Source: a virus. Taken from it: DNA of 22,859 nucleotides. This document shows positions 270 through 20,909 of this stretch, piece by piece; the first letter of the stretch is position 1; every line of letters starts with the position of its first letter. The DNA is taken from the IMG/VR virus record IMGVR_UViG_3300009320_000478, positions 1 through 22,859 of that record; one strand, given 5' to 3'. Below the pieces are notes generated by a model, which was not told where the DNA came from, ran no database searches, and saw nothing but the letters and a program-made list of their open reading frames with translations. The position numbers were made by a program, and so were the translations under genes.

Positions 270-3200
270 ATGAAAAAATTAAAAGTTTTAGCAAATTCAT
301 CATTTATTGGTGATACCGGCTACAATTCCCACACACGAGAATTCTTTACAGCACTATCCAAATTTTCTGATCTGAAAGTCCGAAATTATACTATTGGGAA
401 AAGTTGGAATGGATATAACAAAACACCACATAATAAAGAAAGTTATATTAAGCAAGAGCATAAAGATATTTTATTTTCTCAGACATTATATGATGATGGT
501 AAAAGGAAAGATTATCCAATCTATTCTCATGATTCAAACTTCAAGCCGGATGTAAATATAGTATTAAATGAAGTAAACCACCACTACTTCTATGATGATT
601 ACGAAGGTCCAAAAATAGCATATAATGTTTGGGAATCAACTAAGTATCCAGATGACTTTATGGATAGGATTTTGGAATACGATCAATTGTGGGTACCAAC
701 CGAATGGCAAAAGCAATGTTCAATCAAACAGGGATATCCATCCGATAGAGTTAAAGTTATACCAGAAGCGGTGGATGCCACCACATTCTTTCCAGAAGAA
801 ATAAAGTATGACGATAATATATTTCGTTTTCTAGTTTTTGGTAGATGGGACTACCGAAAATCAATAAATGAAATAATTGAATCATTCCTAAAAACATTCA
901 ATAAGAACGAAAAAGTAGAGCTGGTATTATCAGTCGATAATCCATTTTCAATTGATGGAATGAAGACAACTGAAGAACGTCTAAAGCATTATGGGTTTAA
1001 TGATAAACGAATTAAAGTTATACATTTCCCTTCCAGAGAAAAGTATATTGAATACTTAAAAAGTGGACATGTATTTGTTTCTTGTGCTAGATCAGAAGGA
1101 TGGAACTTGCCTCTGATTGAAGCGCTGGCATGCGGAACGCCATCAATATATTCAAACTGGGGAGCTCAGCTTGAATTTGCTAAAGGAAAAGGCCATCCCG
1201 TTGAGATTATTGGAGAGCGACCGGCATCTGATGGTTCTGAATTTAGTTATGGTGCTGGAGCCAAATCTGTTGATGGAAAACATGGATATAAAGCAACTGA
1301 TTTAATTCCTGGAAATTATTGCGAGCCAGATTATGACGATCTCAGCAAAACAATGAGATATATTTATGAAAATTACGATAAATGTAAAAAGAAAGCATTG
1401 GATGATTCAAAATTAATTCGTGAACAATTTACATGGGAAAATGCCGCTAAAAAAGCATATAAAATTTTAGAGAATATTGATATACCCGATGGGAACAAAT
1501 ATACATATAACATATATTATAATAAGAATGATCATAAATTATATTTTGAAAATAATAAAGGAGACATAGGACATAGACACGTTTATATTAAAGATGTATC
1601 TAATAATATTACTATGTACCATTTTGATTGGGATTTATCTACAAATATGCGGGCGATTCCATCTAATATAGTGTCTGATTATAATTTATTGAAAAATTTT
1701 AAGGGATTTTTAGTTCAGGTTTTGGATGAGGAAGAAAAAATTATATATGAAACAAATGTAATAGTAAACGATTGTGATAAAATAGATGATTTGAAATTTC
1801 ATCAAAATGATAAAGAAGAGTTGTGGATAAATATTTATGAAATGTTCTATAAAGACATTTATCAAAATATGTTTGAAGGAGATATAAATACTGTTATAGA
1901 TATTGGGGCAAATATTGGGATATTTACAAGATATTGTCTTAAAAAAGGAGTAAAAAAATGTTATTCTATAGAACCATCTATTGCTTATAAATATTTAGAA
2001 AAAAATTTCAAAGGAGATAATAGGATTAAATGCATTGATGCTGCCATAACTGGAAAGTCTGGAGTCGCTAATTTATATATACAGGATAATGGGGAATCAC
2101 TTAGTTCTTTGTTTTTGGATGAAAGCAAAAAAATGAATGAAAAGTATATAACTAAACAAGTAAAGACTTATTCTTTTAATGATTTCGTGACTAAGTACAA
2201 TATTGATAAAATAGATATATTAAAAATCGACGTCGAAGGATCTGAATATGAAATACTAGAACATATGAGTGATGATTATCTGAAAAATAATATATCAAAG
2301 TCAATAATAGAATTTCATTTTAATGACGGCATTAAATTAAAGAGAATTATTGATAAACTAGAACGAAATGGATTTGCAATTCAAATCAAAAACCAAAGCA
2401 CGACTGAAACTGGAAGTATTGATAATACGAATGGTATTCTATTTGCTAGTAAAAATGCAATAACTAAAAAACACTCAGAAAAATTTGAATTTAGATATGA
2501 AGAGAATAAAGATAATATTTTAGTTTATGTTATACCCCATGGAATTGAATATGGAAAAGAATATAATGCATATATAAGAGATGGTATAACTGACTTACTT
2601 ATCTATAGTGATGAATTTAGTTTCAAAGATGGTGTTGAATATTGGATGTCAATTGATAATATGTCTTTGGGCAAAATTCGATTTGTTATATTAGATTCAA
2701 ATAAGAATATTGTTTTTGAAAAGTTTTTTAATACTAAAAGACAAAAGGAATCCATAATCGATCATCATATTTATAGTCAATTTATTGATGAAATTTTTGG
2801 TATATATCGTGGAATAATGCATAATAAAGAATATGAATACGATATATGTCGAGTAGAAAAAGGAGATATTTGTGTGGATATTGGAGCAAATATTGGATTA
2901 TTTAGTATGTATGGTTCTTTGTTAGGAGCTTCTAAAATTTATGCTATTGAACCATGTTCTTTTACTTTTGATCATTTAATAAGAAATAAATCTATCAATG
3001 AAAAGTATGATAATGTTATAATTCCATTTAAGTGTGCTATAACGGCTGATACTGGTAAAAGAGACATGTTTGTATATGGCGTTGGTTCTTGTATGAATTC
3101 TTTAGTTGATGTCGGACTTAAGCTATCTCATGAGAAGGAATCAGTGAATGCTGTTAATATTAATGATTTCGTCTATAGTAATAAAATAGACCATATTAAT

Positions 3201-6200
3201 TTCCTTAAAATCGACGCCGAGGGATCAGAATATGAAATTATAGATACAATTGACTCTGAATTTTTATCTAAACATATTGATAAAATGGTCATAGAATTTC
3301 ATGAAGTTCATAATAATGATTATGAAACGTCTCTAGATAAAATAATAAAATGCGGTTTTGAATACTATGAAAATAAAGATAATGATCCATTTATTATGTT
3401 ATATGCATGGAAACCACATCTTAAAAAAGAAATAAAATCGGCATTTGTAGTAACCTGGTTCGGTGAACTACCATACTGGTTTAGTTATTTCTTGAAGTCT
3501 TGTGAATATAATCCATTATATGATTGGTTGATTTTTTCTGATGCATTGCCACCGAATAATATTCCATCCAATGTTAAATTTATTAAGTTCGATTTACAAG
3601 AATTTAATAAGCTGGCTTCTGATAAATTGAATAGAAATGTGGAAATTACCAATGCATATAAATTATGTGATTTTAAGAGTTTATATGGATTTATTTATGA
3701 AGAATATTTAACTAAATACGACTATTGGGGATTCTGTGATATAGATGTTATATGGGGCGACATTAATAAATTTTTTGGAAATTATTTACGCAAAGGAATT
3801 GATATTATAACTCTCGGAGCAGAAGAAAAAAATGGATTGCATTATAGAATATGTGGTCCGTGTACTTTAGTTAAAAATATAGAAGAATTGAATAAGTTAT
3901 TTTTTAACGTGCCAGAACTTGAAGAGATTTTTTCTTCTAACAATTATATAAATTTTGAAGAATCACATTGGGATAAATATGTTAAAAATAATGATAATAT
4001 TAATTTAGAGATATTATTAAATTTACAGAGTTGGGAAAACGGCGGTCCTATTTTGGACAATGAATGGAATAATGGGAAACTATATTTACCATCTGGTAGA
4101 GAAATAATGATGTCGCATATGATTGAAAAAAATAGGACATTTGAAGATACCGGGTTTCGGTTTTTTGATTCAAACAAACAGGATGATGAATTGGTTTATA
4201 TTACTGGTGGTGATGAAAAATATATGCCACTAATAGATGTTTTAACTAGAAGTTTACTAAAATACTCCAAATATAAAATAATAGTTTATGGTTATAATTG
4301 TGATGTGCCAATTAAATATGAGAATGTAATAAAGAAGAGGATAGATATAAAGGAGGATAATCTTATTGATTATTCAGATAGGCCAGTGGGTTATATGTTT
4401 GCAAAACAACAATGTTGTCTAGACGCGATACAAAATTTTAATTATAAGAATTTCGTATGGATAGACGGAGATAGTTTTGCTAGTAAACATATTGATAATG
4501 TTACCAAATATATATCCCAATTAGATAATTATCCTTTGATTAACTCACATATACACGATTCTATTGTTTCTAATATAACTGGAAGGACAATGCAAGAAGA
4601 TTTAATAGAGTTAGTGGGTGCTGCCAATCGTCAATATCCATGGTTGCACGCGTGTATGATGCTTTTTAATAAAAGTAGCGACTGGTTTTTCAGAGAAGTA
4701 TTGATGGTTGCAGAAAAATTACACGATGATATAAAACTAAGACAAACCATATTTGGAACTGATGAACTATTAATGAATGTTTTATTGTGGAAATATGGGT
4801 TTGATAAAAAAATGGATGTACATGATCTTGATAGTGAAAATGAGGATAATTTTTATAAATTTTCACTCAATGATGTAGAAAAAACCTATAAAAATTTTAC
4901 ACCCCTATTAAGTGATGGATTATCGCCACACGCTATACTTCCAACTAAAGAGGAAGATATACTTGTATATCATGGTCAAAAAGACGCTAAAAAAGCCAAT
5001 GAAATGGTCGATTATTTGGATAAAAAAATTCATTATAGTAGTATGGGTGAATTACAATTAGAACAGCAATCCAATGAAATTGGATTATACTTTAAGTATT
5101 TTGATGTAAATGATGGAGATGTGGTTGTTGATTTAGGAGCATGCTTGGGATTGACAACTTTAGAAATATTAAAAAGAAATCCAAAAAAAGTTTATTGTGT
5201 AGAAGCTTCAGATTTAATATATAAAGATTTGTATAGAAATATTACGAATTTCAGCAATGTGATACCTTGTAAATTATTAATCGGAGAAGAAAAAAATAAA
5301 ATAGGAATTTTTGAGTATAGTGATAAAGATAATGATGTAGAGATTTTATCTTTTTATGAGTTTGTAAAACAAAATAATATTGATAAAATAGACTTTCTAA
5401 AAATGGATATTGAAGGAGCTGAATTTGAAATTTTTAATGATAAAAATAGCAGAGATTGGATTGGGAACAATGTAAAAAATATAGTGGGAGAAAATCATAT
5501 AGATCATAAGAAAGAAGAGTTTTTTGATCTAATTAATAAAATTAAAGATTTAGGATTTGATTTAATTCTTAATAGTATAGATGGAATAGATATTACACAA
5601 CAAGTGATCAATAATCAATTTTTGAGTGATGTAAATGAATACGCAATAGATTATTATAGACATGTTCTTTTCTATGCATTTAAAGATAGATTTTGTTGGG
5701 TTACGGCCGGCGATGAAAAATATATGGGAATGATAGACGTCTTGGCCAAAAGTTTATTGAAATACTCTAAACATAAGTTAATAGTTTATGGATTTAACTG
5801 TGATCCGAATATTGATTTACCCAACGTCATAAATAGACGAATTGATTTTCCTGTAAAAACATCTAATTTTATCAAAAATGCCCCGAAATCAGATTTAAGA
5901 GATAAAGAACATTTAATATATTTTGCAAAGTATTTAGCCAGTTTAGAATCATTAAATGAAAATTATGATACTTTTGCAATGATAGACGGAGATGTTTTCG
6001 TAACGGAGAATATAGATAAATGTGTTAAATATTCAAATGATCTACTAGATTATCCATTATTCATGCGATATTATTATGGCGATCTTGTTTTCTGGCGAAT
6101 CATTGATGGTGTAAAAATGGAGTGTGGTTATGGATCTGAATTATCCAAAATTAAAAATATAAATAGAAATCCAAATAATAGAATTGTAGCAGGTGGTTTT

Positions 6201-8849
6201 TATTTCTATAATAAAAAAAGTGAGAATTTTTTTAATTCGTGCTTAGATTGGAATAAAGAATTAGATAAAATTAGTTTTACGGATTATATAGATGATAATG
6301 CATTCGCAGATGAGCGGGTTGTGAATAATATATTATGGAAAGATAATTTAGATAAATATTTACCAGTAACGTGGAATCACCACAACGGATCAGCAGGCGA
6401 TATACAAGTAAGTAATAAATATACAAAATATCTTAAAAGAGGGTTTGATGTCATGTTTGATGAAAACACCAAAGACGTATATTTTATACACGGACCAGAT
6501 CCATCTGTAGCTAGTAAAAATGCGAAAATATTAATGGAAAATTATGAAGATTATTATAATAATAATATGTTAATGATTGTCGCTCATCCAGATGACGAAA
6601 TAATTTTTGGAGGAGCCGAATTAATACAAAATGCGTCTAATTATCAAGTTATTTGTGTTACTTGTGGAGAACATGATAGTAGTAAACACGATTTTGAAAA
6701 AGTTATGAATGAACTAGGAGTTTGTTCATATGAAATATGGGATTATAAAGCGGAATTTGAATTATTTGAAAACAAATTAGTGGATGATATTAGTAAAATA
6801 ATCAATTCTAAAAAATGGGATAAAATAGTAACTCATAATCCAATTGGTGAATATGGTCATATACAACATAAACAAATATTTGATATAGTCAAAGAATTAA
6901 CTGATGATTTTTATATTTTCACTAAAACTCCAGAAATATTAAGTTCCGATGTATTAGATAAAAAGAAAAATATTTTAGATTTATATGAATCTGAACAGCC
7001 AATTATTCATCAACTAAGAGTTAAAAACGGGGATTGGTATATTAGTCCGGATAGCTCTACCAACTATATTGAGTATGGCACCATTGAAAAATACGATTCT
7101 AGTAAAGATATAACATCATTTATTAGTTGTATGGATAAATCACATAATTATCAGGAGACTTATAATATTAGTAGAGCATATGATATTGGAATGATACAAT
7201 CAAATGGTGAAATAACTAGTTTAGTCGAATTTCTAAAGGATAAAAATATAAAGAATTTCTTAGAAATAGGCACCGATCAGGGCGGTACATTTTATCTATT
7301 TACAAAAATAACATCTGGTAAAAAAATATCATTGGATCTTCCTCGGAATTCATTTGAAACAGAATCTATTCTAGAGGCAAGAAACAATTTAATGCGTAGT
7401 TGGTCTGATAATGTGCATATAATTTCTGGTGATTCACATAAAATGGAATCGTTAAATCAAGTAAAAAAGATTTTAGATGGCGAATTATTAGATTTATTAT
7501 TTATAGACGGCGATCATACATATAATGGAGTATATCAAGATTATATAATGTACTCTAGTTTGGTTCAAGACGATGGATATATAGTGTTCCATGACACCAA
7601 CGACTCAGAAGAATATACACAGTCAGGTTATTCTGTTAGTATTTTATGGAATCAGCTAGACGGAAATAAAATAGAGTTTAACGAGAATAATAGTTGGGGT
7701 GGAATTGGATTAATAACCAAAAATAGTTCTAACACAATAAATAATAAAATTGATACAACTGGAGAGGAATTAACAATAAATGTAAACTTTGTTCAAGGGG
7801 CAATGGCTGAGTTATTGTCGAATAAATCATCTGAATATTATATTGAATTTATCGATTCAGACAAAGGACAAACGATACACCAAGAATATATTAAAAATAA
7901 CACATGGATTAAACCTGATAGAAAATGGTATACAAACTGGTTAATACGGATCATTAATCGATCTTCAAATAAAATAATACACGAACATAAGTTTGATTTA
8001 ACAAATAAAAGAGCATATATTGCACTAGAGAGTAAGTCGTTAGGTGACACACTGGCGTGGATGCCATACGTAGAAGAATTTCGTAAAAAACATAATTGCG
8101 AAACAATTTGTTCAACATTTTGGAATCACTTCTTCAAATCAGAATATAAAGATATAACATTTGTCAAACCAGGAACAACTGTTCATAATCTATATGCTAT
8201 GTATAGTGTCGGTATATTCTCAGAAGACGGTATGAATCCAATCGATATAAAAAAAACACCATTACAAAAAGTAGCAACAGATATACTGGGTCTTGATTAT
8301 GAAGAGATCAAACCAAAAATTCACAAAAAACCAAAATTACGAAAAATAAAAGAACCATATATTTGTATTGCGCCGTATGCGACAGCGCAATGTAAATTTT
8401 GGAATAATCAAAATGGATGGCAGGAATTAGTTGATCATCTAAACAAAAAAGGATATAAGGTCGTACTAATATCACGTGAGGAATCTGGATATATGGGTAA
8501 TGATCATCCAACTGGGATAATAGATAAGTCTGGTGATAAGTATGATATTTATGATCGTATAAATGATTTAGAACACGCCGATGCTTTTATTGGAGTTGGA
8601 TCTGGACTATCTTGGCTTGCTTGGGCAGTGGGAACTCCGGTTATTATGATATCAGGATTCTCACCCCCGTGGTATGAATTCAAATGCGAACGAATAATTA
8701 ACATGGATGTATGTAATAGTTGTTGGCCAGAAAATAAACTAGACGCAGGTAACTGGAATTGGTGTCCAAAACAAAAAAACTTTGAATGCACAAGATCAAT
8801 AACATCGGCTGAAGTTATAAAATCATTGAACAGAATTTTGAAAAATTGA
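270..8849 (+). CDS. Giant multi-domain glycosyltransferase / FkbM methyltransferase / PIG-L deacetylase / heptosyltransferase-like polyenzyme (2,859 aa)
   Basis: Single uninterrupted frame; the modules below are read from motifs. 1-405: GT-B glycosyltransferase of GT4 type with an E-x7-E pair (E276, E284) in SEGWNLPLIEALACGTP. 520-755, 845-1055 and 1600-1800: FkbM-type SAM methyltransferases with DIGANIG or DLGACLG loops (D544, D870, D1621) and K-I/M-D-x-E-G acids (D654, D982, D1713). 1057-1307: glycosyltransferase-like module with DIDVIWGD (D1157, D1159), like DUF6625 proteins. 1308-1587 and 1808-2095: duplicated GT-A-like modules with IDGD (D1399/D1401, D1906/D1908). 2100-2270: PIG-L/LmbE deacetylase with AHPDDE (H2106, D2108, D2109) and GHIQH (H2197, H2200). 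2330-2450: SAM-binding fold with EIGTDQGG and IDGDHTY. 2500-2859: domain like autotransporter O-heptosyltransferases, with SLGDTLAW and cysteines 2815, 2818, 2832, 2840. Beta-rich linkers lie near 410-515 and 760-835. Substrate unknown; fibre or host-glycan modification is inferred from the neighbours. Confidence 0.88.
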   Translation: MKKLKVLANSSFIGDTGYNSHTREFFTALSKFSDLKVRNYTIGKSWNGYNKTPHNKESYIKQEHKDILFSQTLYDDGKRKDYPIYSHDSNFKPDVNIVLNEVNHHYFYDDYEGPKIAYNVWESTKYPDDFMDRILEYDQLWVPTEWQKQCSIKQGYPSDRVKVIPEAVDATTFFPEEIKYDDNIFRFLVFGRWDYRKSINEIIESFLKTFNKNEKVELVLSVDNPFSIDGMKTTEERLKHYGFNDKRIKVIHFPSREKYIEYLKSGHVFVSCARSEGWNLPLIEALACGTPSIYSNWGAQLEFAKGKGHPVEIIGERPASDGSEFSYGAGAKSVDGKHGYKATDLIPGNYCEPDYDDLSKTMRYIYENYDKCKKKALDDSKLIREQFTWENAAKKAYKILENIDIPDGNKYTYNIYYNKNDHKLYFENNKGDIGHRHVYIKDVSNNITMYHFDWDLSTNMRAIPSNIVSDYNLLKNFKGFLVQVLDEEEKIIYETNVIVNDCDKIDDLKFHQNDKEELWINIYEMFYKDIYQNMFEGDINTVIDIGANIGIFTRYCLKKGVKKCYSIEPSIAYKYLEKNFKGDNRIKCIDAAITGKSGVANLYIQDNGESLSSLFLDESKKMNEKYITKQVKTYSFNDFVTKYNIDKIDILKIDVEGSEYEILEHMSDDYLKNNISKSIIEFHFNDGIKLKRIIDKLERNGFAIQIKNQSTTETGSIDNTNGILFASKNAITKKHSEKFEFRYEENKDNILVYVIPHGIEYGKEYNAYIRDGITDLLIYSDEFSFKDGVEYWMSIDNMSLGKIRFVILDSNKNIVFEKFFNTKRQKESIIDHHIYSQFIDEIFGIYRGIMHNKEYEYDICRVEKGDICVDIGANIGLFSMYGSLLGASKIYAIEPCSFTFDHLIRNKSINEKYDNVIIPFKCAITADTGKRDMFVYGVGSCMNSLVDVGLKLSHEKESVNAVNINDFVYSNKIDHINFLKIDAEGSEYEIIDTIDSEFLSKHIDKMVIEFHEVHNNDYETSLDKIIKCGFEYYENKDNDPFIMLYAWKPHLKKEIKSAFVVTWFGELPYWFSYFLKSCEYNPLYDWLIFSDALPPNNIPSNVKFIKFDLQEFNKLASDKLNRNVEITNAYKLCDFKSLYGFIYEEYLTKYDYWGFCDIDVIWGDINKFFGNYLRKGIDIITLGAEEKNGLHYRICGPCTLVKNIEELNKLFFNVPELEEIFSSNNYINFEESHWDKYVKNNDNINLEILLNLQSWENGGPILDNEWNNGKLYLPSGREIMMSHMIEKNRTFEDTGFRFFDSNKQDDELVYITGGDEKYMPLIDVLTRSLLKYSKYKIIVYGYNCDVPIKYENVIKKRIDIKEDNLIDYSDRPVGYMFAKQQCCLDAIQNFNYKNFVWIDGDSFASKHIDNVTKYISQLDNYPLINSHIHDSIVSNITGRTMQEDLIELVGAANRQYPWLHACMMLFNKSSDWFFREVLMVAEKLHDDIKLRQTIFGTDELLMNVLLWKYGFDKKMDVHDLDSENEDNFYKFSLNDVEKTYKNFTPLLSDGLSPHAILPTKEEDILVYHGQKDAKKANEMVDYLDKKIHYSSMGELQLEQQSNEIGLYFKYFDVNDGDVVVDLGACLGLTTLEILKRNPKKVYCVEASDLIYKDLYRNITNFSNVIPCKLLIGEEKNKIGIFEYSDKDNDVEILSFYEFVKQNNIDKIDFLKMDIEGAEFEIFNDKNSRDWIGNNVKNIVGENHIDHKKEEFFDLINKIKDLGFDLILNSIDGIDITQQVINNQFLSDVNEYAIDYYRHVLFYAFKDRFCWVTAGDEKYMGMIDVLAKSLLKYSKHKLIVYGFNCDPNIDLPNVINRRIDFPVKTSNFIKNAPKSDLRDKEHLIYFAKYLASLESLNENYDTFAMIDGDVFVTENIDKCVKYSNDLLDYPLFMRYYYGDLVFWRIIDGVKMECGYGSELSKIKNINRNPNNRIVAGGFYFYNKKSENFFNSCLDWNKELDKISFTDYIDDNAFADERVVNNILWKDNLDKYLPVTWNHHNGSAGDIQVSNKYTKYLKRGFDVMFDENTKDVYFIHGPDPSVASKNAKILMENYEDYYNNNMLMIVAHPDDEIIFGGAELIQNASNYQVICVTCGEHDSSKHDFEKVMNELGVCSYEIWDYKAEFELFENKLVDDISKIINSKKWDKIVTHNPIGEYGHIQHKQIFDIVKELTDDFYIFTKTPEILSSDVLDKKKNILDLYESEQPIIHQLRVKNGDWYISPDSSTNYIEYGTIEKYDSSKDITSFISCMDKSHNYQETYNISRAYDIGMIQSNGEITSLVEFLKDKNIKNFLEIGTDQGGTFYLFTKITSGKKISLDLPRNSFETESILEARNNLMRSWSDNVHIISGDSHKMESLNQVKKILDGELLDLLFIDGDHTYNGVYQDYIMYSSLVQDDGYIVFHDTNDSEEYTQSGYSVSILWNQLDGNKIEFNENNSWGGIGLITKNSSNTINNKIDTTGEELTINVNFVQGAMAELLSNKSSEYYIEFIDSDKGQTIHQEYIKNNTWIKPDRKWYTNWLIRIINRSSNKIIHEHKFDLTNKRAYIALESKSLGDTLAWMPYVEEFRKKHNCETICSTFWNHFFKSEYKDITFVKPGTTVHNLYAMYSVGIFSEDGMNPIDIKKTPLQKVATDILGLDYEEIKPKIHKKPKLRKIKEPYICIAPYATAQCKFWNNQNGWQELVDHLNKKGYKVVLISREESGYMGNDHPTGIIDKSGDKYDIYDRINDLEHADAFIGVGSGLSWLAWAVGTPVIMISGFSPPWYEFKCERIINMDVCNSCWPENKLDAGNWNWCPKQKNFECTRSITSAEVIKSLNRILKN
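4197..4304 (+). repeat. GT-A-like module, copy 1 of an internal protein repeat
   Basis: Encodes residues 1310-1345 of the giant enzyme, beginning YITGGDEKYM and ending YGYNCD. It matches residues 1810-1845 at 26 of 36 positions when aligned by eye without gaps. Downstream of both copies, at similar spacing, lies an IDGD motif typical of metal-binding GT-A glycosyltransferases. This indicates internal duplication of a glycosyltransferase module of about 280 residues. Confidence 0.8.
5697..5804 (+). repeat. GT-A-like module, copy 2 of an internal protein repeat
   Basis: Encodes residues 1810-1845, beginning WVTAGDEKYM and ending YGFNCD. It is the partner of the repeat at 4197-4304 and is separated from it by the third FkbM-type methyltransferase module. 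The match is at protein level; the codons have diverged, so the duplication does not look very recent. Confidence 0.8.
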
Positions 8850-14510: not shown

Positions 14511-15125
14511 ATGGACACAACTCAACAAAAAATAGCAAAACAGGGAATCACACTAAAAGATATAATCAAATCAGAAATAAAGAAGTGCAGAAAAGATCCC
14601 GCATACTTTATGAATAAATACTGTTATATCCAGCATCCAGAACGTGGAAAGATACCATTCAAACTATTCGACTATCAACGTGATGTAGTGATAGCTGATA
14701 TGGAGAAATATAAGCATAACATTATTCTGAAATCACGCCAGCTAGGAATATCAACTGTCGTAGCAGGATATTGTTTATGGATGGTATTGTTTCAAAAAGA
14801 TAAAACGATTAGAATAATTGCGACGAGTCAAGAGACATCCAAAAACATGATCACCAAAATAAGCTATATGTACTATAGCTTACCACGGTGGTTGAGATCA
14901 TTATCTGATGCGACGGAAGACAATAAAATGTCAATGTCATTTAGCAACGGATCGTCAGTGAGAGCGTTGTCGAGTACGCCAACTTCTGGGAGATCAGAGT
15001 CGCTTTCCGCGCTAATTTTTGATGAGTGCTGCGGAAAAAATACAAAAATAACACTACGAAATAAAGTAACTGGTGAAATAGTAGAAGAGGAAATTGGGAA
15101 TTTAATAAATGATAATTATGAATAA
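14511..15125 (+). CDS. terL: Large terminase, N-terminal ATPase part, fused to a short N-intein (TerL-N/IntN)
   Basis: 204 residues. 1-172 are the start of a T4 gp17-like terminase ATPase, the motor that pumps DNA into the head. A deviant Walker A, KSRQLGIST (74-82), has its Lys ahead of the loop. Walker B is LSALIFDE, ending D171-E172. From C173 the sequence changes to an intein N-terminus (CCGKNTKITLRNKVTGE) and stops at residue 204 with tandem TAA TAG. Removing the intein joins FDE to CAFAEY in the downstream ORF and restores the IDECAF-type Walker B region known from T4 terminases. The polypeptide alone lacks the rest of the ATPase and the nuclease, so activity depends on ligation to the product of 15212-16645, or on correction of the sequence. 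Confidence 0.85.
   Translation: MDTTQQKIAKQGITLKDIIKSEIKKCRKDPAYFMNKYCYIQHPERGKIPFKLFDYQRDVVIADMEKYKHNIILKSRQLGISTVVAGYCLWMVLFQKDKTIRIIATSQETSKNMITKISYMYYSLPRWLRSLSDATEDNKMSMSFSNGSSVRALSSTPTSGRSESLSALIFDECCGKNTKITLRNKVTGEIVEEEIGNLINDNYE
15027..15122 (+). other. Intein N-fragment (32 aa) of an atypically split TerL intein
   Basis: Begins with Cys1 of block A immediately after the Walker B Glu. The pattern CCGKNTKITLRNKVTGE then EEIGNLI fits intein block A (Cys, then T-x-I/V, a turn with G, and an E-I-x-x-L segment). Choosing the first rather than the second Cys as residue 1 gives the canonical spliced terminase FDE-CAF. It is far shorter than a standard N-intein of about 100 residues and lacks block B, which is found in the C-part instead. 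Confidence 0.78.
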
Positions 15126-15211
15126 TAGAGAAATTATATTACAAAACATTTAGATGAAATATCTTTGGCTAATAATGAACATATGTCTAAATTTAAGAAT
15201 CAAGTGATATC
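15126..15211 (+). other. 86-base spacer between the two TerL/intein ORFs
   Basis: It follows the TAA stop at 15123-15125. TAG at 15126-15128 directly follows, in the same frame. After the two stops that frame is open again for 31 codons (RNYITKHLDEISLANNEHMS and onward) to a TAA at 15222. The C-intein frame is closed by a TAA at 15194-15196 and opens only just before its ATG at 15212. There is no room for a homing endonuclease. Only a weak Shine-Dalgarno-like AAGTGA (15202-15207) precedes the ATG. Confidence 0.6.
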
Positions 15212-15535
15212 ATGGACAAAGTAATAAAAAACATATCGGAATGGGAAGTATTAACTCCAGATGGATTTAAGGACTTTAATGGCATCCAAAAAATAATAAA
15301 AGATGAGCATTATGTTCTAGATATAAGCGGCGATGAATTTATTTGTTCTGGAAATCACAAAATCAAAACAAAAGATGGATTCAAGTATGCAAAAGACTTA
15401 AAACAGAATGAGGAATTACTCGAAGGACAAATCATAAATAGTATAACAAAGGTAGATGAAGAAATTGACTTATATGATTTACTAAATGTGGGCGAAGAAC
15501 AAGAATATTACACTAATGGAATAATAAGTCACAAT
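15212..15535 (+). other. Intein C-fragment (108 aa) of an atypically split TerL intein
   Basis: Starts with Met, then EWEVLTPDGFKDFNGIQK, an intein beta-strand segment that normally follows block A. Block B is FICSGNHKIKTKDG (S-x-x-H in place of the usual T-x-x-H). Blocks F/G are LYDLLNVG and YYTNGIISHN, with the terminal His-Asn followed by Cys+1. From memory the AceL-TerL C-intein has the same architecture: a Met start before ILSPNGF, SINH in block B, and YITNGVVSHN at the end. The complete catalytic set (Cys1 in the N-part, block B His, terminal His-Asn, Cys+1) is present, so it may be active in trans. Confidence 0.82.
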
Positions 15536-16645
15536 TGTGCGTTCGCAGAATATGCTGAGGAGATCTGGACATCAGCTCAGCAAGCAGCAATGGCGGGCAA
15601 GATAATAATTGTTAGTACTCCGAACGGTTTTGGAAACTTTTTCCATAAGATGTGGTCTGACGCTGAAGCCGGATTAAATGATTTTAATACAATCAAACTT
15701 AAGTGGGACGTACATCCAGAACACGATCAAGCATGGCGAGATGAGCAAACTGTACTATTGGGCGAACGGCTGGCTGCGCAGGAATGCAACGTGTCATTTA
15801 TTACTTCCGGCCATACTGTAATTGATGGTGAAATATTACAATGGTACAAAGACAATACAGAAGAACCAATCGAAAAACGTGGATTTGATGGAAACATATG
15901 GATCTGGGAACGTCCGGATTATCATAAAACTTATGTCGTTTGTGCTGATGTTGCCAGAGGAGATGGCGAAGATTATTCTACATTTCATGTTTTGGATATC
16001 GAGGATGTCAGGCAAGTAGCAGAATATAAAGGAAAATTACCTCCAGCAGAATTCGGAAATATGTTAATCAGCATAGCAACTGAATATAATGATGCTCTAC
16101 TAATCATTGATAATACAGGATTAGGTTGGGCAGCAATACAACCAGCAATTGATCGTAGTTATCCATATCTATTCTATATGTCAAAGAATTTTGCGTATAT
16201 GGATCTTCAAGTTCAACTACAAAAAGGGCTGGACTTAAAGCAGAAGGAGGATATGGTACCTGGATTTACAATATCAACCAAAACAAGACCGGTGATCATC
16301 TCAAAACTAGAAACATACTTTAGAGAAAGAACTCCAACCGTACGAAGTACTAGATTAGTAGATGAACTATTTACATTCATATGGAACAATGGAAAAGCAG
16401 AAGCAAGAACTGGATATAACGATGATCTAACTATGGCGTTCTCGATTGGATTGTGGGTACGAGATACAGCACTACAGCTTAACCAGAAGGGATTGGAATT
16501 AACAAAAACATCAATGGAATATATGGGCAAATTAAATGAACCACAGATATACAGTTCATCACCATACAGTGATGCGGGAAAGAAAGCGTGGAATATGAAT
16601 GTTGGTAAAAATCAAGTGGAGGATTTGAGTTGGTTAGTTCGCTAG
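15212..16645 (+). CDS. terL: C-intein fused to large terminase C-terminal ATPase/nuclease part (IntC/TerL-C)
   Basis: 477 residues. 1-108 are the intein C-part. From C109 the sequence is terminase: CAFAEYAEEIW completes Walker B, and IIIVSTPNG is the coupling motif. The RNase H-like nuclease follows, with acids at D246 (CADVARGDGEDYS), D300 (LIIDNTG) and D404/D405 (YNDDLTMAF), the positions expected of the T4 gp17 metal-binding triad. Joined to the first ORF after splicing the protein is 541 residues, close to the T4 gp17 size class. It lies in a different frame from TerL-N, so simple readthrough of the first stops could not make the full protein. Its ATG has only a weak ribosome-binding site, and re-initiation from the upstream ORF is plausible. 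Confidence 0.87.
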   Translation: MDKVIKNISEWEVLTPDGFKDFNGIQKIIKDEHYVLDISGDEFICSGNHKIKTKDGFKYAKDLKQNEELLEGQIINSITKVDEEIDLYDLLNVGEEQEYYTNGIISHNCAFAEYAEEIWTSAQQAAMAGKIIIVSTPNGFGNFFHKMWSDAEAGLNDFNTIKLKWDVHPEHDQAWRDEQTVLLGERLAAQECNVSFITSGHTVIDGEILQWYKDNTEEPIEKRGFDGNIWIWERPDYHKTYVVCADVARGDGEDYSTFHVLDIEDVRQVAEYKGKLPPAEFGNMLISIATEYNDALLIIDNTGLGWAAIQPAIDRSYPYLFYMSKNFAYMDLQVQLQKGLDLKQKEDMVPGFTISTKTRPVIISKLETYFRERTPTVRSTRLVDELFTFIWNNGKAEARTGYNDDLTMAFSIGLWVRDTALQLNQKGLELTKTSMEYMGKLNEPQIYSSSPYSDAGKKAWNMNVGKNQVEDLSWLVR

Positions 16646-17504: not shown

Positions 17505-20500
17505 ATGGCAAAAAACAAATGGTATAGCGGGTTACAACGTCTCTTCAGCACTGGCGTCGTAGTACGTCGTATTGGTAAAGGCAAAATTAAAGTAGTAGAT
17601 ACTTCTAACCTCCAAGGAGCAGGCGGACCAAAAGGCAGTAAAGTTATTGATCGCTATGGAAGAATCTATAATAGTAGACATACATCTTACTCTTATGGAA
17701 GACCAGGTGGACGTTATCCAGATACACTAAATAATCGATTAGAGCTTTATACTGACTATGAAGCAATGTCGACTGATTCTATATTAAGTTCAGCATTAGA
17801 TATTTTCTCGGATGAATGCTTGCAAAAAGATACAATAATCCCATTGCTTGATGGAAGAAAAATTACCATAAAAGAACTATTCGAAGAAAAAGATTTTTGG
17901 TTATATGGATTAGACGATGATGGTAATTTCAAACCAATCAAAGCAGATAAAGTTTCATTCAATGGCATCAAAAAGATATATAAAATCACTCTTGAAGACG
18001 GCACTGAATTAAAAGCAACTGGAAATCATATATGGCTAGATACAAATCGTATAGAAAAAAGAACAGACGAATTAATGGTAGGTGATGGTATATATACTCT
18101 AGCAACTAAATTAAGTACTCACGGAAATATCCCAGGATATTTAATGATCAAAGACAATAAAGGTTGGGATTTTGTTCATAGATTAGTAGCAAGAAAGCAT
18201 AAACCACTTATCGAACAAAAAACAAAAGATACTGCTTATATCCACCATAGTAGCTTCGATAAATTAAACAATAACCCAGATGAATTATGTTGGATGTCTA
18301 GAAAAGATCATTTTGTTGCTCATTCTGAATTTAATAAAGAAATATGGAGCGATGAAACGATAACCCATATTTACAAAGATAAAACAAGAGCCGGTCATAA
18401 AAAATACTGGACAGCTGAAAAAAGAGCTGAAATGGGAATTCGTGTATCTAAGTTTATTAAACAATATATGCTATCATTAACTCAAGGTAAACGGAATGAA
18501 ATATTTGGCAGACCAGGCAAACAAAATGGAATGTTTGGAAATGGTTATAAATTAGAAAAAGAAAAAAACGGTAGGTGGTTATATGATATAGATAGGTTAG
18601 AAAATATTGATATCCAAGAATATATAAGTATTGCTATGACTGGGTACCGTCCAGATAAAAGTGTATTTAATGAAGTTAATAAATTTTATAATCTAAACTC
18701 ATCTGAATTTCATAGAATAAATAGGCATATATGTGATTTATATGGTGTGAAGAATCTAAAGAAGTTTGCAGTAAAGTATAATAATGGAGAATTAGAATCA
18801 GTAAATATATCAAATCATAAAATAGTAAAAATAGAAGAATCTGGATTAGATGAAGTATATGATATTGTAAATGCAGGCGATAATCATGTTTTTGCTATAG
18901 AAACAAAGGATGGTGGAAAATTATATACACATAATTGCTCAACTCGTGATCTTGAGACTGGCGATATTCTAAATATCAAAAGCAAGAATGAGGACACTCG
19001 TCGCATTCTTGAAAACTTGTTCTATGATATACTAAGTATTGAACATAACTTGTGGTGGTGGATCCGTAACATGACGAAATATGGGGATTTCTACCTTCAA
19101 CTGAATCTAAATCCAGAACTTGGAGTAGTAAACGCACAACCACTATCTTCTTATGACGTGGTGCGTGAGGAGATGTATGATGATGAAACAAATCAATACA
19201 AAGTTAAATTTTTCTATGAAGGAGATCAAGGAAAAGGAGAATTGCAATATTTTGAAGTAGCGCATTTTAGAATGCTGACGGATAGCAATTTCTTGCCATA
19301 TGGAAAGAGCATGATGGAGGGAGCAAGAAAAGTGTGGAAATCACTAACACTTATGGAAGATGCTTTACTTATCAATCGTATTATGCGCGCACCTGAACGC
19401 CGAATCATAAAAGTAGACATAGGAAATATAAAACCAGATGAAGTAGACGGTTATATGGAAAAAGTCATGAACAAGATGAAGAAAGTTCCGTATATTGACG
19501 AGTCGACTGGGGAAATAAATATGAAATTTAATCTTATGAGCATGATGGAGGATGTTTTTCTAGCTGTTCGTGGTGATAAAAGCGGAACCACAGTTGACAC
19601 ATTACCAGGTCTAGAGTGGAATACGACAGAAGATTTAGAATACCTAAGGTCACGGATGATAGCCGCACTCAAAATCCCAAAAGCATTTCTAGGATACGAA
19701 GAAGGAGTAGAAGGAAAGTGTTTAGCACCAAATACCGAAATATCATTATTGAATGGTGAAATTCTTACTATTAAAGAAATAGCAGACAAGTTTACAGAAA
19801 ATAATGAAACTGATTTATGGTGTTATTCTTTCGACTTCAAAACAAATTCAATCATCCCAGCAAAAATCAAATTAGCAGAAAAAACTAGAAGAGATACACA
19901 AGTAGTTAGAGTGCATATAGACAATGATACATATGTTGATTGCACACCAGATCACCATTTCATATTAAAAGGCGGAACAGAAATTGAAGTTCAAGATTTA
20001 GTCGTAGGAGATAATCTTCAAACTAAAGAATTAGACCATAAAGTAGTTCGTATTGAATGGTTGACTGAGAAAATAGATACATATAACATGGAAGTTGATA
20101 ACGAGAATCATAATTATTTATTGAATAATGGAATCTTTATAAAAAATTCAACATTATCTGTCCTCGATATCCGCTTCAGTCGTACTATCGAAATGATCCA
20201 ACGCATCGTTGTTTCCGAACTAACTAAAATCGCGATTATCCACTTATTCTTGCAGGGATATAAAGATTCCGACCTCGTAGAATTCGAGTTAGAACTAACA
20301 AACCCTTCAATCATATACGAACAAGAAAAAGTATCATTATTATCTGAAAAATACCAGTTGGTCTCATCAATGCAAGGAACTGGAATAACATCTCAAGATA
20401 AAATATATAAAGACTTATTTGATATGTCCGAAGATGAAATCAAACAAGAAAAGAAAAAAATTATTGAAGATAAAAAATGGCAATTCCGTCTAGCTCAAAT

Positions 20501-20909
20501 CGAAGCAGAAGGTAATGATCCAGCAATCAGCGGCGAATCATTCGGTACACCACACGATCTAGCAGCAATGAGTGCAGAAGATGCTGAAGAGCCAGAAAAA
20601 CCAGATGTAAAAAATGATCCAGATGATAAAAATGAACCAGGACAAGGTAGACCAAAAGAGCCAACTCACTATGGAGCTCAGGAACATCCAGACGGTCGTG
20701 ATCCAGTTGGTAAGAAAGATATTAAAAAATCATTGGAACCAGACCCAAGTCCACTCAAACATACTTTTAGAAACGGTCCGCTATCATTGAAAAACTCAAT
20801 CAAACCAGAGAAAAAGAAGATGATATCAGAACTATATGAAGACTCTATAGAAAAAGAGGAAGATGATAAATTTTTAGATGAAAATAATATCAAAGATAAT
20901 GATATATAG
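17505..20909 (+). CDS. T4 gp20-like portal protein with two inteins (1,134 aa precursor, about 618 aa after splicing)
   Basis: Portal proteins form the dodecameric ring at the head vertex through which DNA enters; T4 gp20 has 524 residues. Exteins: 1-104 (MAKNKWYSGLQRLF up to SSALDIFSDE), 478-738 (CSTRDLETG; MLTDSNFLPYGKSMMEGARK; RAPERRIIKVDIGN; PKAFLGYEEGVEGK) and 882-1134 (STLSVLDIRFSRTIEMIQRI). These are T4-type portal segments. Both junctions read as continuous portal once the inteins are removed: FSDE-CSTRD and EGK-STLSV. The final 120 residues are an acidic, Pro-rich extension (PEKPDVKNDPDDKNEPG and a charged helix) beyond the gp20 core. The start codon is chosen because the N-terminus matches the family; it lacks a nearby Shine-Dalgarno sequence. 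Confidence 0.9.
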   Translation: MAKNKWYSGLQRLFSTGVVVRRIGKGKIKVVDTSNLQGAGGPKGSKVIDRYGRIYNSRHTSYSYGRPGGRYPDTLNNRLELYTDYEAMSTDSILSSALDIFSDECLQKDTIIPLLDGRKITIKELFEEKDFWLYGLDDDGNFKPIKADKVSFNGIKKIYKITLEDGTELKATGNHIWLDTNRIEKRTDELMVGDGIYTLATKLSTHGNIPGYLMIKDNKGWDFVHRLVARKHKPLIEQKTKDTAYIHHSSFDKLNNNPDELCWMSRKDHFVAHSEFNKEIWSDETITHIYKDKTRAGHKKYWTAEKRAEMGIRVSKFIKQYMLSLTQGKRNEIFGRPGKQNGMFGNGYKLEKEKNGRWLYDIDRLENIDIQEYISIAMTGYRPDKSVFNEVNKFYNLNSSEFHRINRHICDLYGVKNLKKFAVKYNNGELESVNISNHKIVKIEESGLDEVYDIVNAGDNHVFAIETKDGGKLYTHNCSTRDLETGDILNIKSKNEDTRRILENLFYDILSIEHNLWWWIRNMTKYGDFYLQLNLNPELGVVNAQPLSSYDVVREEMYDDETNQYKVKFFYEGDQGKGELQYFEVAHFRMLTDSNFLPYGKSMMEGARKVWKSLTLMEDALLINRIMRAPERRIIKVDIGNIKPDEVDGYMEKVMNKMKKVPYIDESTGEINMKFNLMSMMEDVFLAVRGDKSGTTVDTLPGLEWNTTEDLEYLRSRMIAALKIPKAFLGYEEGVEGKCLAPNTEISLLNGEILTIKEIADKFTENNETDLWCYSFDFKTNSIIPAKIKLAEKTRRDTQVVRVHIDNDTYVDCTPDHHFILKGGTEIEVQDLVVGDNLQTKELDHKVVRIEWLTEKIDTYNMEVDNENHNYLLNNGIFIKNSTLSVLDIRFSRTIEMIQRIVVSELTKIAIIHLFLQGYKDSDLVEFELELTNPSIIYEQEKVSLLSEKYQLVSSMQGTGITSQDKIYKDLFDMSEDEIKQEKKKIIEDKKWQFRLAQIEAEGNDPAISGESFGTPHDLAAMSAEDAEEPEKPDVKNDPDDKNEPGQGRPKEPTHYGAQEHPDGRDPVGKKDIKKSLEPDPSPLKHTFRNGPLSLKNSIKPEKKKMISELYEDSIEKEEDDKFLDENNIKDNDI
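17817..18935 (+). other. Portal intein 1 (373 aa) with HNH homing-endonuclease domain
   Basis: Residues 105-477 of the precursor. Block A is CLQKDTIIPLLDGRKITIKE, and block B is KATGNH (T172 to H175). The C-terminal blocks are EVYDIVNAGDNHVFAI and LYTHN, then Cys+1. Inserted between the splicing blocks is an HNH endonuclease: the H247-H248 pair, N256/N257, and H269 and H273 in the WMSRKDHFVAH segment, followed by DNA-binding-like helices. All residues needed for splicing and for a working HNH site are visible, so this may be an active mobile intein. Confidence 0.85.
19719..20147 (+). other. Portal intein 2 (143-aa mini-intein, no endonuclease)
   Basis: Residues 739-881. Block A is CLAPNTEISLLNGEILTIKE, block B is DCTPDHHF (T814, H817), and blocks F/G are IDTYNMEVDNENHNYLLNNG and IFIKN, then Ser+1 at residue 882. 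The length leaves no room for an endonuclease, so it is not self-mobile. The residue before the terminal Asn is Lys rather than the usual His. Some active inteins tolerate this, but it can slow Asn cyclisation. It interrupts the conserved portal segment GVEGK-STL. Confidence 0.85.

Follow-up and report, generated by a model that had tools for sequence, protein, structure and literature searches.

Few natural split inteins combine a short N-terminal part (IntN) with a long C-terminal part (IntC), and in atypically split inteins the IntN measures 15–37 amino acids (aa) (PMC13014065). AceL, GOS and Cat, the described systems closest to the one presented here, interrupt the large terminase subunit (TerL) and have an IntN of 25–37 aa, an IntC of 104–115 aa, a Cys at position +1 and a split after helix 1 (S2) (PMC11766414, PMC13014065); CatC, our reference below, is an engineered consensus of the AceL-TerL and GOS-TerL inteins. 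VidaL (IntN 16 aa) and PolB16 OarG likewise have atypically short IntNs, of 15–16 aa, but are split earlier, at S1, which in VidaL lies after strand 2 (PMC13014065). The mycobacteriophage intein TerL1-e also sits in a terminase Walker B motif, although in a terminase of the terminase_1 family and tested as one continuous intein (PMC5050341), and in 'fractured genes' the halves of a split intein flank a free-standing endonuclease (PMC7891396). Here we describe a TerL gene encoded as two open reading frames (ORFs) in a viral DNA of 22,859 bases (IMG/VR record IMGVR_UViG_3300009320_000478, hereafter the window), which, given its length, is a phage fragment. The gene carries a new example of this known, rare kind of split intein. 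With a probability of about 0.9, we read it as a natural, obligately trans-splicing class 1 intein of the short-N (AceL/GOS/Cat, S2) type that would rebuild TerL, is probably functional, and whose split state probably derives from a fractured state by loss of the endonuclease. This reading rests on the anatomy and homology of the locus, on its conserved catalytic residues, on relatives that have the same layout and on purifying selection on IntC.

Anatomy of the split TerL gene

The locus comprises the following features, all on the plus strand:

14511–15125, plus: ORF1, 204 aa, the TerL ATPase half with IntN at its end
14511–15026, plus: TerL N-extein, 172 aa, with Walker A-like SRQLGIST and, at its end, Walker B LIFDE (Terminase_6N Pfam match; alignment to the Mel-JY01 and immuto TerLs)
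15027–15122, plus: IntN, 32 aa, from Cys1 (Cys173) to Glu204, CCGKNTKITLRNKVTGEIVEEEIGNLINDNYE (aligned with the IntNs of relatives; profile against CatN, E 2e-8)
15123–15128, plus: tandem in-frame stops TAA (15123–15125) and TAG (15126–15128)
15126–15211, plus: spacer between ORF1 and ORF2, 86 bases including the TAG (translated in three frames)
15212–16645, plus: ORF2, 477 aa, IntC followed by the remaining TerL, in a frame different from that of ORF1
15212–15535, plus: IntC, 108 aa, with block B C-S-G-N-H (S46, H49), LYD motif (Asp89) and block G SHN (His107, Asn108) (matches to CatC and structural model)
15536–16645, plus: TerL C-extein, 369 aa from Cys+1 (CAFAEY...), the rest of the ATPase and the nuclease domain (tblastn to immuto TerL, 50% identity)

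ORF coordinates and translations agree with an earlier note on this DNA, which had placed a 32-residue IntN from Cys173 at the end of ORF1 and a 108-residue IntC, ending in His-Asn before a Cys (IISHN, then Cys), at the start of ORF2; three-frame translation likewise confirmed that the ORFs lie in different frames. The two stops, TAA and TAG, are as that note described, but the 86 bases which it counted beyond both already include the second. None of the three frames of the spacer (15126–15211) contains intein sequence or links the parts encoded by ORF1 and ORF2. The spacer was also considered as part of one frame-restored intein, and this was rejected because no frame links the parts and contiguous homologues have few residues between their conserved N- and C-terminal parts. 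There is no endonuclease ORF within the 86 bases, so that the window itself does not have the layout of a fractured gene with a free-standing homing endonuclease, and local alignment of the spacer to the insert of a related contig, L002 (L numbers are our labels), gave no endonuclease remnant clearly above shuffled sequences (in the best case, 16 of 200 shuffles were equally good).

Joining the exteins gives a 541-aa TerL with the junction LIFDE-CAFAEY, as had been predicted for removal of the intein halves. Two uninterrupted TerLs, those of Microcystis phage Mel-JY01 (LVIDE-AGFID at the junction) and Flavobacterium phage immuto (LLIDE-AAFID), could be aligned with this protein over its whole length, and no indel interrupts the alignment at that point; the break therefore comes immediately behind the Walker B Asp-Glu, and Cys+1 takes the place of Ala. 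The full-length alignment of the joined protein contains both the ATPase motifs and the nuclease domain of a T4-type large terminase. The insertion site of AceL, FE/CEFLGS (a slash marks the splice junction), is not used in the window: the equivalent position, QE/CNVSF, is empty, and the intein is inserted instead at DE/CAF. Insertion site defines an intein allele, not a class, and Glu at −1 is common to both TerL sites; contacts of an extein glutamate have been reported in Cat (PMC11766414).

Homology and predicted fold of the intein parts

A single-sequence phmmer search of PDB with IntC gave CatC as the best match (E=4e-19), and family profiles built from the relatives found here matched IntC to CatC with E 1.8e-38 and IntN to CatN with E 2e-8; on these sequence scores, the matches are not due to chance. 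The profile match to VidaL was weaker (6e-8). The alignment to atypical split inteins that the earlier note had proposed as a check thus matched both parts to CatN and CatC, and its assignment to the atypical class with a short-N/long-C division is upheld by profile and fold. Of the AceL-TerL or VidaL-type grouping offered there, the AceL/GOS/Cat (S2) half stands and the VidaL half (S1, IntN 16 aa) does not. The structure predicted for IntC from an 18-sequence alignment, in which the Campylobacter row was omitted, had a mean predicted local distance difference test score (pLDDT) of 91 and superposed on CatC (6dsl chain B) with a template modelling (TM) score of 0.86 by query length, a root mean square deviation of 1.8 and 43% identity over the structural match.

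Cys1, block B S46-G-N-H49, His107-Asn108 and Cys+1 are those of a class 1 intein. The window shares with Cat, AceL-TerL and GOS-TerL a short IntN and long IntC in TerL, here 32 and 108 aa in separate ORFs and both homologous to characterised members, as well as the S2 split, Cys+1 and Glu at −1; it differs in its Walker B site and, as shown below, in lying outside the CatC clade. Alignment to contiguous homologues places the split point after HINT helix 1. One of these, L090, is a contiguous mini-intein at the same Walker B site, whose model has a helix at residues 23–27 and a low-confidence loop at 33–40, its inner part of lowest confidence; both parts therefore form one intein, and the split lies in the loop after helix 1.

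Relatives at the Walker B site

Searches of viral contigs with IntN and IntC alignments turned up at least seven further metagenomic TerLs with this site and this split point, and both are also present in isolates of Campylobacter Fletchervirus; the two-ORF layout that the earlier note suggested looking for in related contigs is thus found at the same site in both metagenomic contigs and isolated phages. Both halves could be read, with the IntN length in brackets, in L002 (32 aa), L087 (32), L088 (34), L094 (33), L095 (33), L097 (32) and L101/L102 (33), the last being one locus from two different metagenomes; L095 shares its contig with L059 and L100. Further IntC halves at this site are those of L089, L091/L092, L093, L096 and L122, the last of which was the one relative obtained when bacterial and archaeal genomes were scanned. 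Five of the seven loci (L002, L087, L088, L094 and L095) have a separate ORF between the halves, with matches to DUF7487 and/or a TnsA-like endonuclease. This is the layout of fractured genes, reportedly the subject of work by Dassa et al. (2009), from which the window differs in that only 86 bases and no endonuclease separate its halves. Equally free of an endonuclease are L097 and L102, with gaps of 5 and 225 bases, respectively.

Further variants of this arrangement were seen. The TerL C-half of L102 (L102:5352-9338) apparently has, downstream of its split intein, two more inteins that are large and contiguous, which would make three inteins in one TerL gene. In L104 (5001-5099 and 8685-9020) a split intein lies two residues before the Walker B Asp-Glu (VY/C...HN/CDEMAF), its halves approximately 3.6 kb apart with an endonuclease-like ORF and another ORF between them. 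The same IntN family (C..TKITVRNKxTGEIK, then a stop) follows a GxGK Walker A-like motif, apparently of a Clp/AAA+ ATPase, in L109 (5001-5081), L112, L113 and L116, which suggests, from sequence, short-N split inteins in another phage ATPase.

Campylobacter phages

In Fletchervirus, the same IntN (31 aa) was found on the TerL N-half in about 40 records and the IntC-TerL half in many. The site is the same (DE/C...HN/CAF), and IntC-TerL is a separate ORF, as in the window. The halves in phage NCTC12673 are:

GU296433 46030-46755, minus: TerL N-half
GU296433 72894-74222, plus: TerL C-half (L119), IntC starting at about 72894

Whereas the halves in the window are adjacent, these lie on opposite strands with about 26 kb between them; no continuous message therefore encodes both, and TerL can be rebuilt only by joining or assembling two proteins. 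Neither half appears as a feature in the GU296433 annotation, from which gene numbers 55 and 82 are missing. The genome paper of NCTC 12673 is said to mention a putative trans-splicing intein. According to its authors, the related phage IBB_35 has a TerL interrupted by an intein and by an intron that carries a homing endonuclease (PMC3322345); a split intein would explain the interruption more simply.

A second insertion site in TerL

IntC similarity also retrieved a large set of marine contigs with an intein at FE/CEFLGS. Where the IntN was identified (62 contigs), it has 29–34 aa (29 in 56 of them), with an IntC of 100–108 aa and a gap that is usually 558–596 bases long and, in the two contigs tested against Pfam, codes for GIY-YIG or HNH proteins. 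In L011, L080, L081 and L084 the gap is much shorter, at −8 to 44 bases, and L082 has an IntN and IntC closely similar to those of L080/L081 with a gap of 579 vs 5 bases. Taken with the window-like loci at Walker B, these short-gap contigs mean that endonuclease-less split inteins exist at both sites. The intein at FE/CEFLGS is contiguous in L007, L008, L072 and L077, and L002 has a contiguous intein there in addition to its split one at Walker B.

Phylogeny and selection

In the IntC tree, CatC groups with 12 of the 13 IntCs from the second site in a supported clade (95/95). The window lies outside it, as sister to L002 (100/100). Most deep forks are unresolved, and the Walker B-site inteins as one group are neither rejected nor established (approximately unbiased test, p 0.37). 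Ratios of nonsynonymous to synonymous substitution (dN/dS) between the window and L002 are simple Nei-Gojobori estimates, with the exteins close to saturation. The IntCs are 85% identical, with dN/dS 0.09 and dS 0.78, which indicates purifying selection; the values are 0.065 (dS 2.2) for the N-extein and 0.13 (dS 1.3) for the first 100 codons of the C-extein. These values hint at a later exchange of IntC than of the exteins.

Just upstream of the insertion site, DNA identity between the window and L002 drops to 50–60%. The peptide SGRSESLS (14984–15010; just upstream of position 514 in L002) is identical in both, with all four serine codons different (TCN vs AGY), as if this stretch had come from another donor during homing.

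Weighing of the alternatives

Some observations weigh against a functional split intein in the window. Its IntN has only 47% aa identity to that of L002, with dN/dS about 0.7 on about 18 synonymous sites, and, being short and diverged, gives no evident constraint from this pair alone; since it is more diverged than IntC, the two halves may differ in recent history. Cys2 and Asn5 of IntN deviate from the usual C-x-x-G-[DE]-T. ORF2 is preceded only by a weak Shine-Dalgarno-like GTGA, although no such motif precedes TerL-N or the portal gene. No second contig in IMG/VR has the exact spacer or IntC DNA of the window, whose exact locus therefore rests on a single assembly.

The divergence of IntN, and the room that a fragment leaves for another TerL copy, would suit a decayed intein, the split being a dead relic and packaging being performed by another TerL; this is very unlikely, as a dN/dS of 0.09 means strong purifying selection on IntC, both parts have their catalytic residues and both exteins align over their full length to intact TerLs. 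Very unlikely, too, is an assembly or sequencing artefact in which errors broke one continuous intein ORF. The single assembly and the contiguous form in L090 speak for it, but tandem stops plus a frame change require several independent errors, the spacer is without intein sequence, and the same break point appears in many contigs, in L101/L102 and in the genomes of about 40 Campylobacter phage isolates; with the halves so far apart in NCTC12673, an artefact is unlikely for splits of this class at the Walker B site.

A TerL of two non-covalent subunits, a gene in pieces without ligation, has a precedent in principle in a ribonucleotide reductase interrupted by a homing endonuclease (Friedrich et al. 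2007, as cited in PMC3322345). It is nevertheless hardly plausible here, as it leaves unexplained the conserved nucleophiles, blocks B and G and a break exactly at the intein border. Removal of the stretch at the RNA level appears practically negligible as an explanation: a group I or II intron would not fit into the 86-base spacer by itself, the insert encodes intein halves under selection, and an RNA element or intron was rejected because no Rfam family matched within the window. Splicing of terL RNA is nonetheless documented in phage ICP1 (PMC10448857).

Proposed mechanism

For the preferred trans-splicing intein, the splicing chemistry, its consequence and the direction of endonuclease loss, as we infer them, would be as follows. 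ORF1 and ORF2 would be translated separately, and the 32-aa IntN on the ATPase half would bind the 108-aa IntC on the C-terminal half, completing the HINT fold. An N-to-S acyl shift at Glu172-Cys173 would be followed by transthioesterification to Cys+1 (Cys109 of ORF2), and cyclisation of Asn108 and an S-to-N shift would then release the intein and form the 541-aa TerL; these are the standard steps of class 1 trans-splicing. The motor would be inactive before splicing, because the break directly follows the catalytic Walker B Glu. Relatives in which a free-standing endonuclease separates the halves have the same split point, so that the most likely course is loss of the endonuclease from the window, with the split retained.

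Neighbouring genes

A T4-like portal gene (17505-20909) contains two more inteins, both contiguous, which makes three inteins in two neighbouring packaging genes:

17817-18935: portal intein 1, 373 aa, HNH match, SDE/C...THN/CST
19719-20147: portal intein 2, 143 aa, GK/C...IKN/STLS

At 270-8849, one ORF of 2859 aa adjoins phage structural genes; its domains are a glycosyltransferase, three FkbM methyltransferase stretches, DUF6625, a PIG-L deacetylase, a CmcI-like methyltransferase and GT9.

Implications

In the literature searched, we found no characterised short-N split intein at the Walker B insertion site. Short-N split inteins are prized for protein labelling, as peptide synthesis gives access to the IntN, and the locus and its relatives add about a dozen varied candidates whose native extein context is a different one (DE/CA). 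With inteins that are contiguous, fractured or endonuclease-less at one and the same site, the order in which the events of intein splitting took place can be put to the test, and in the Campylobacter phages there is a cultured system in which TerL must be assembled in trans. We lean, somewhat beyond even odds, to the broader view that short-N split inteins at the TerL Walker B site are a widespread family in their own right, separate from the AceL/Cat clade. In such a family the split may persist without a linked endonuclease and the halves can become separated in the genome, as in the Campylobacter phages; obligate trans-splicing of the packaging motor would then be a stable arrangement from which new short-IntN tags for ligation could be drawn.
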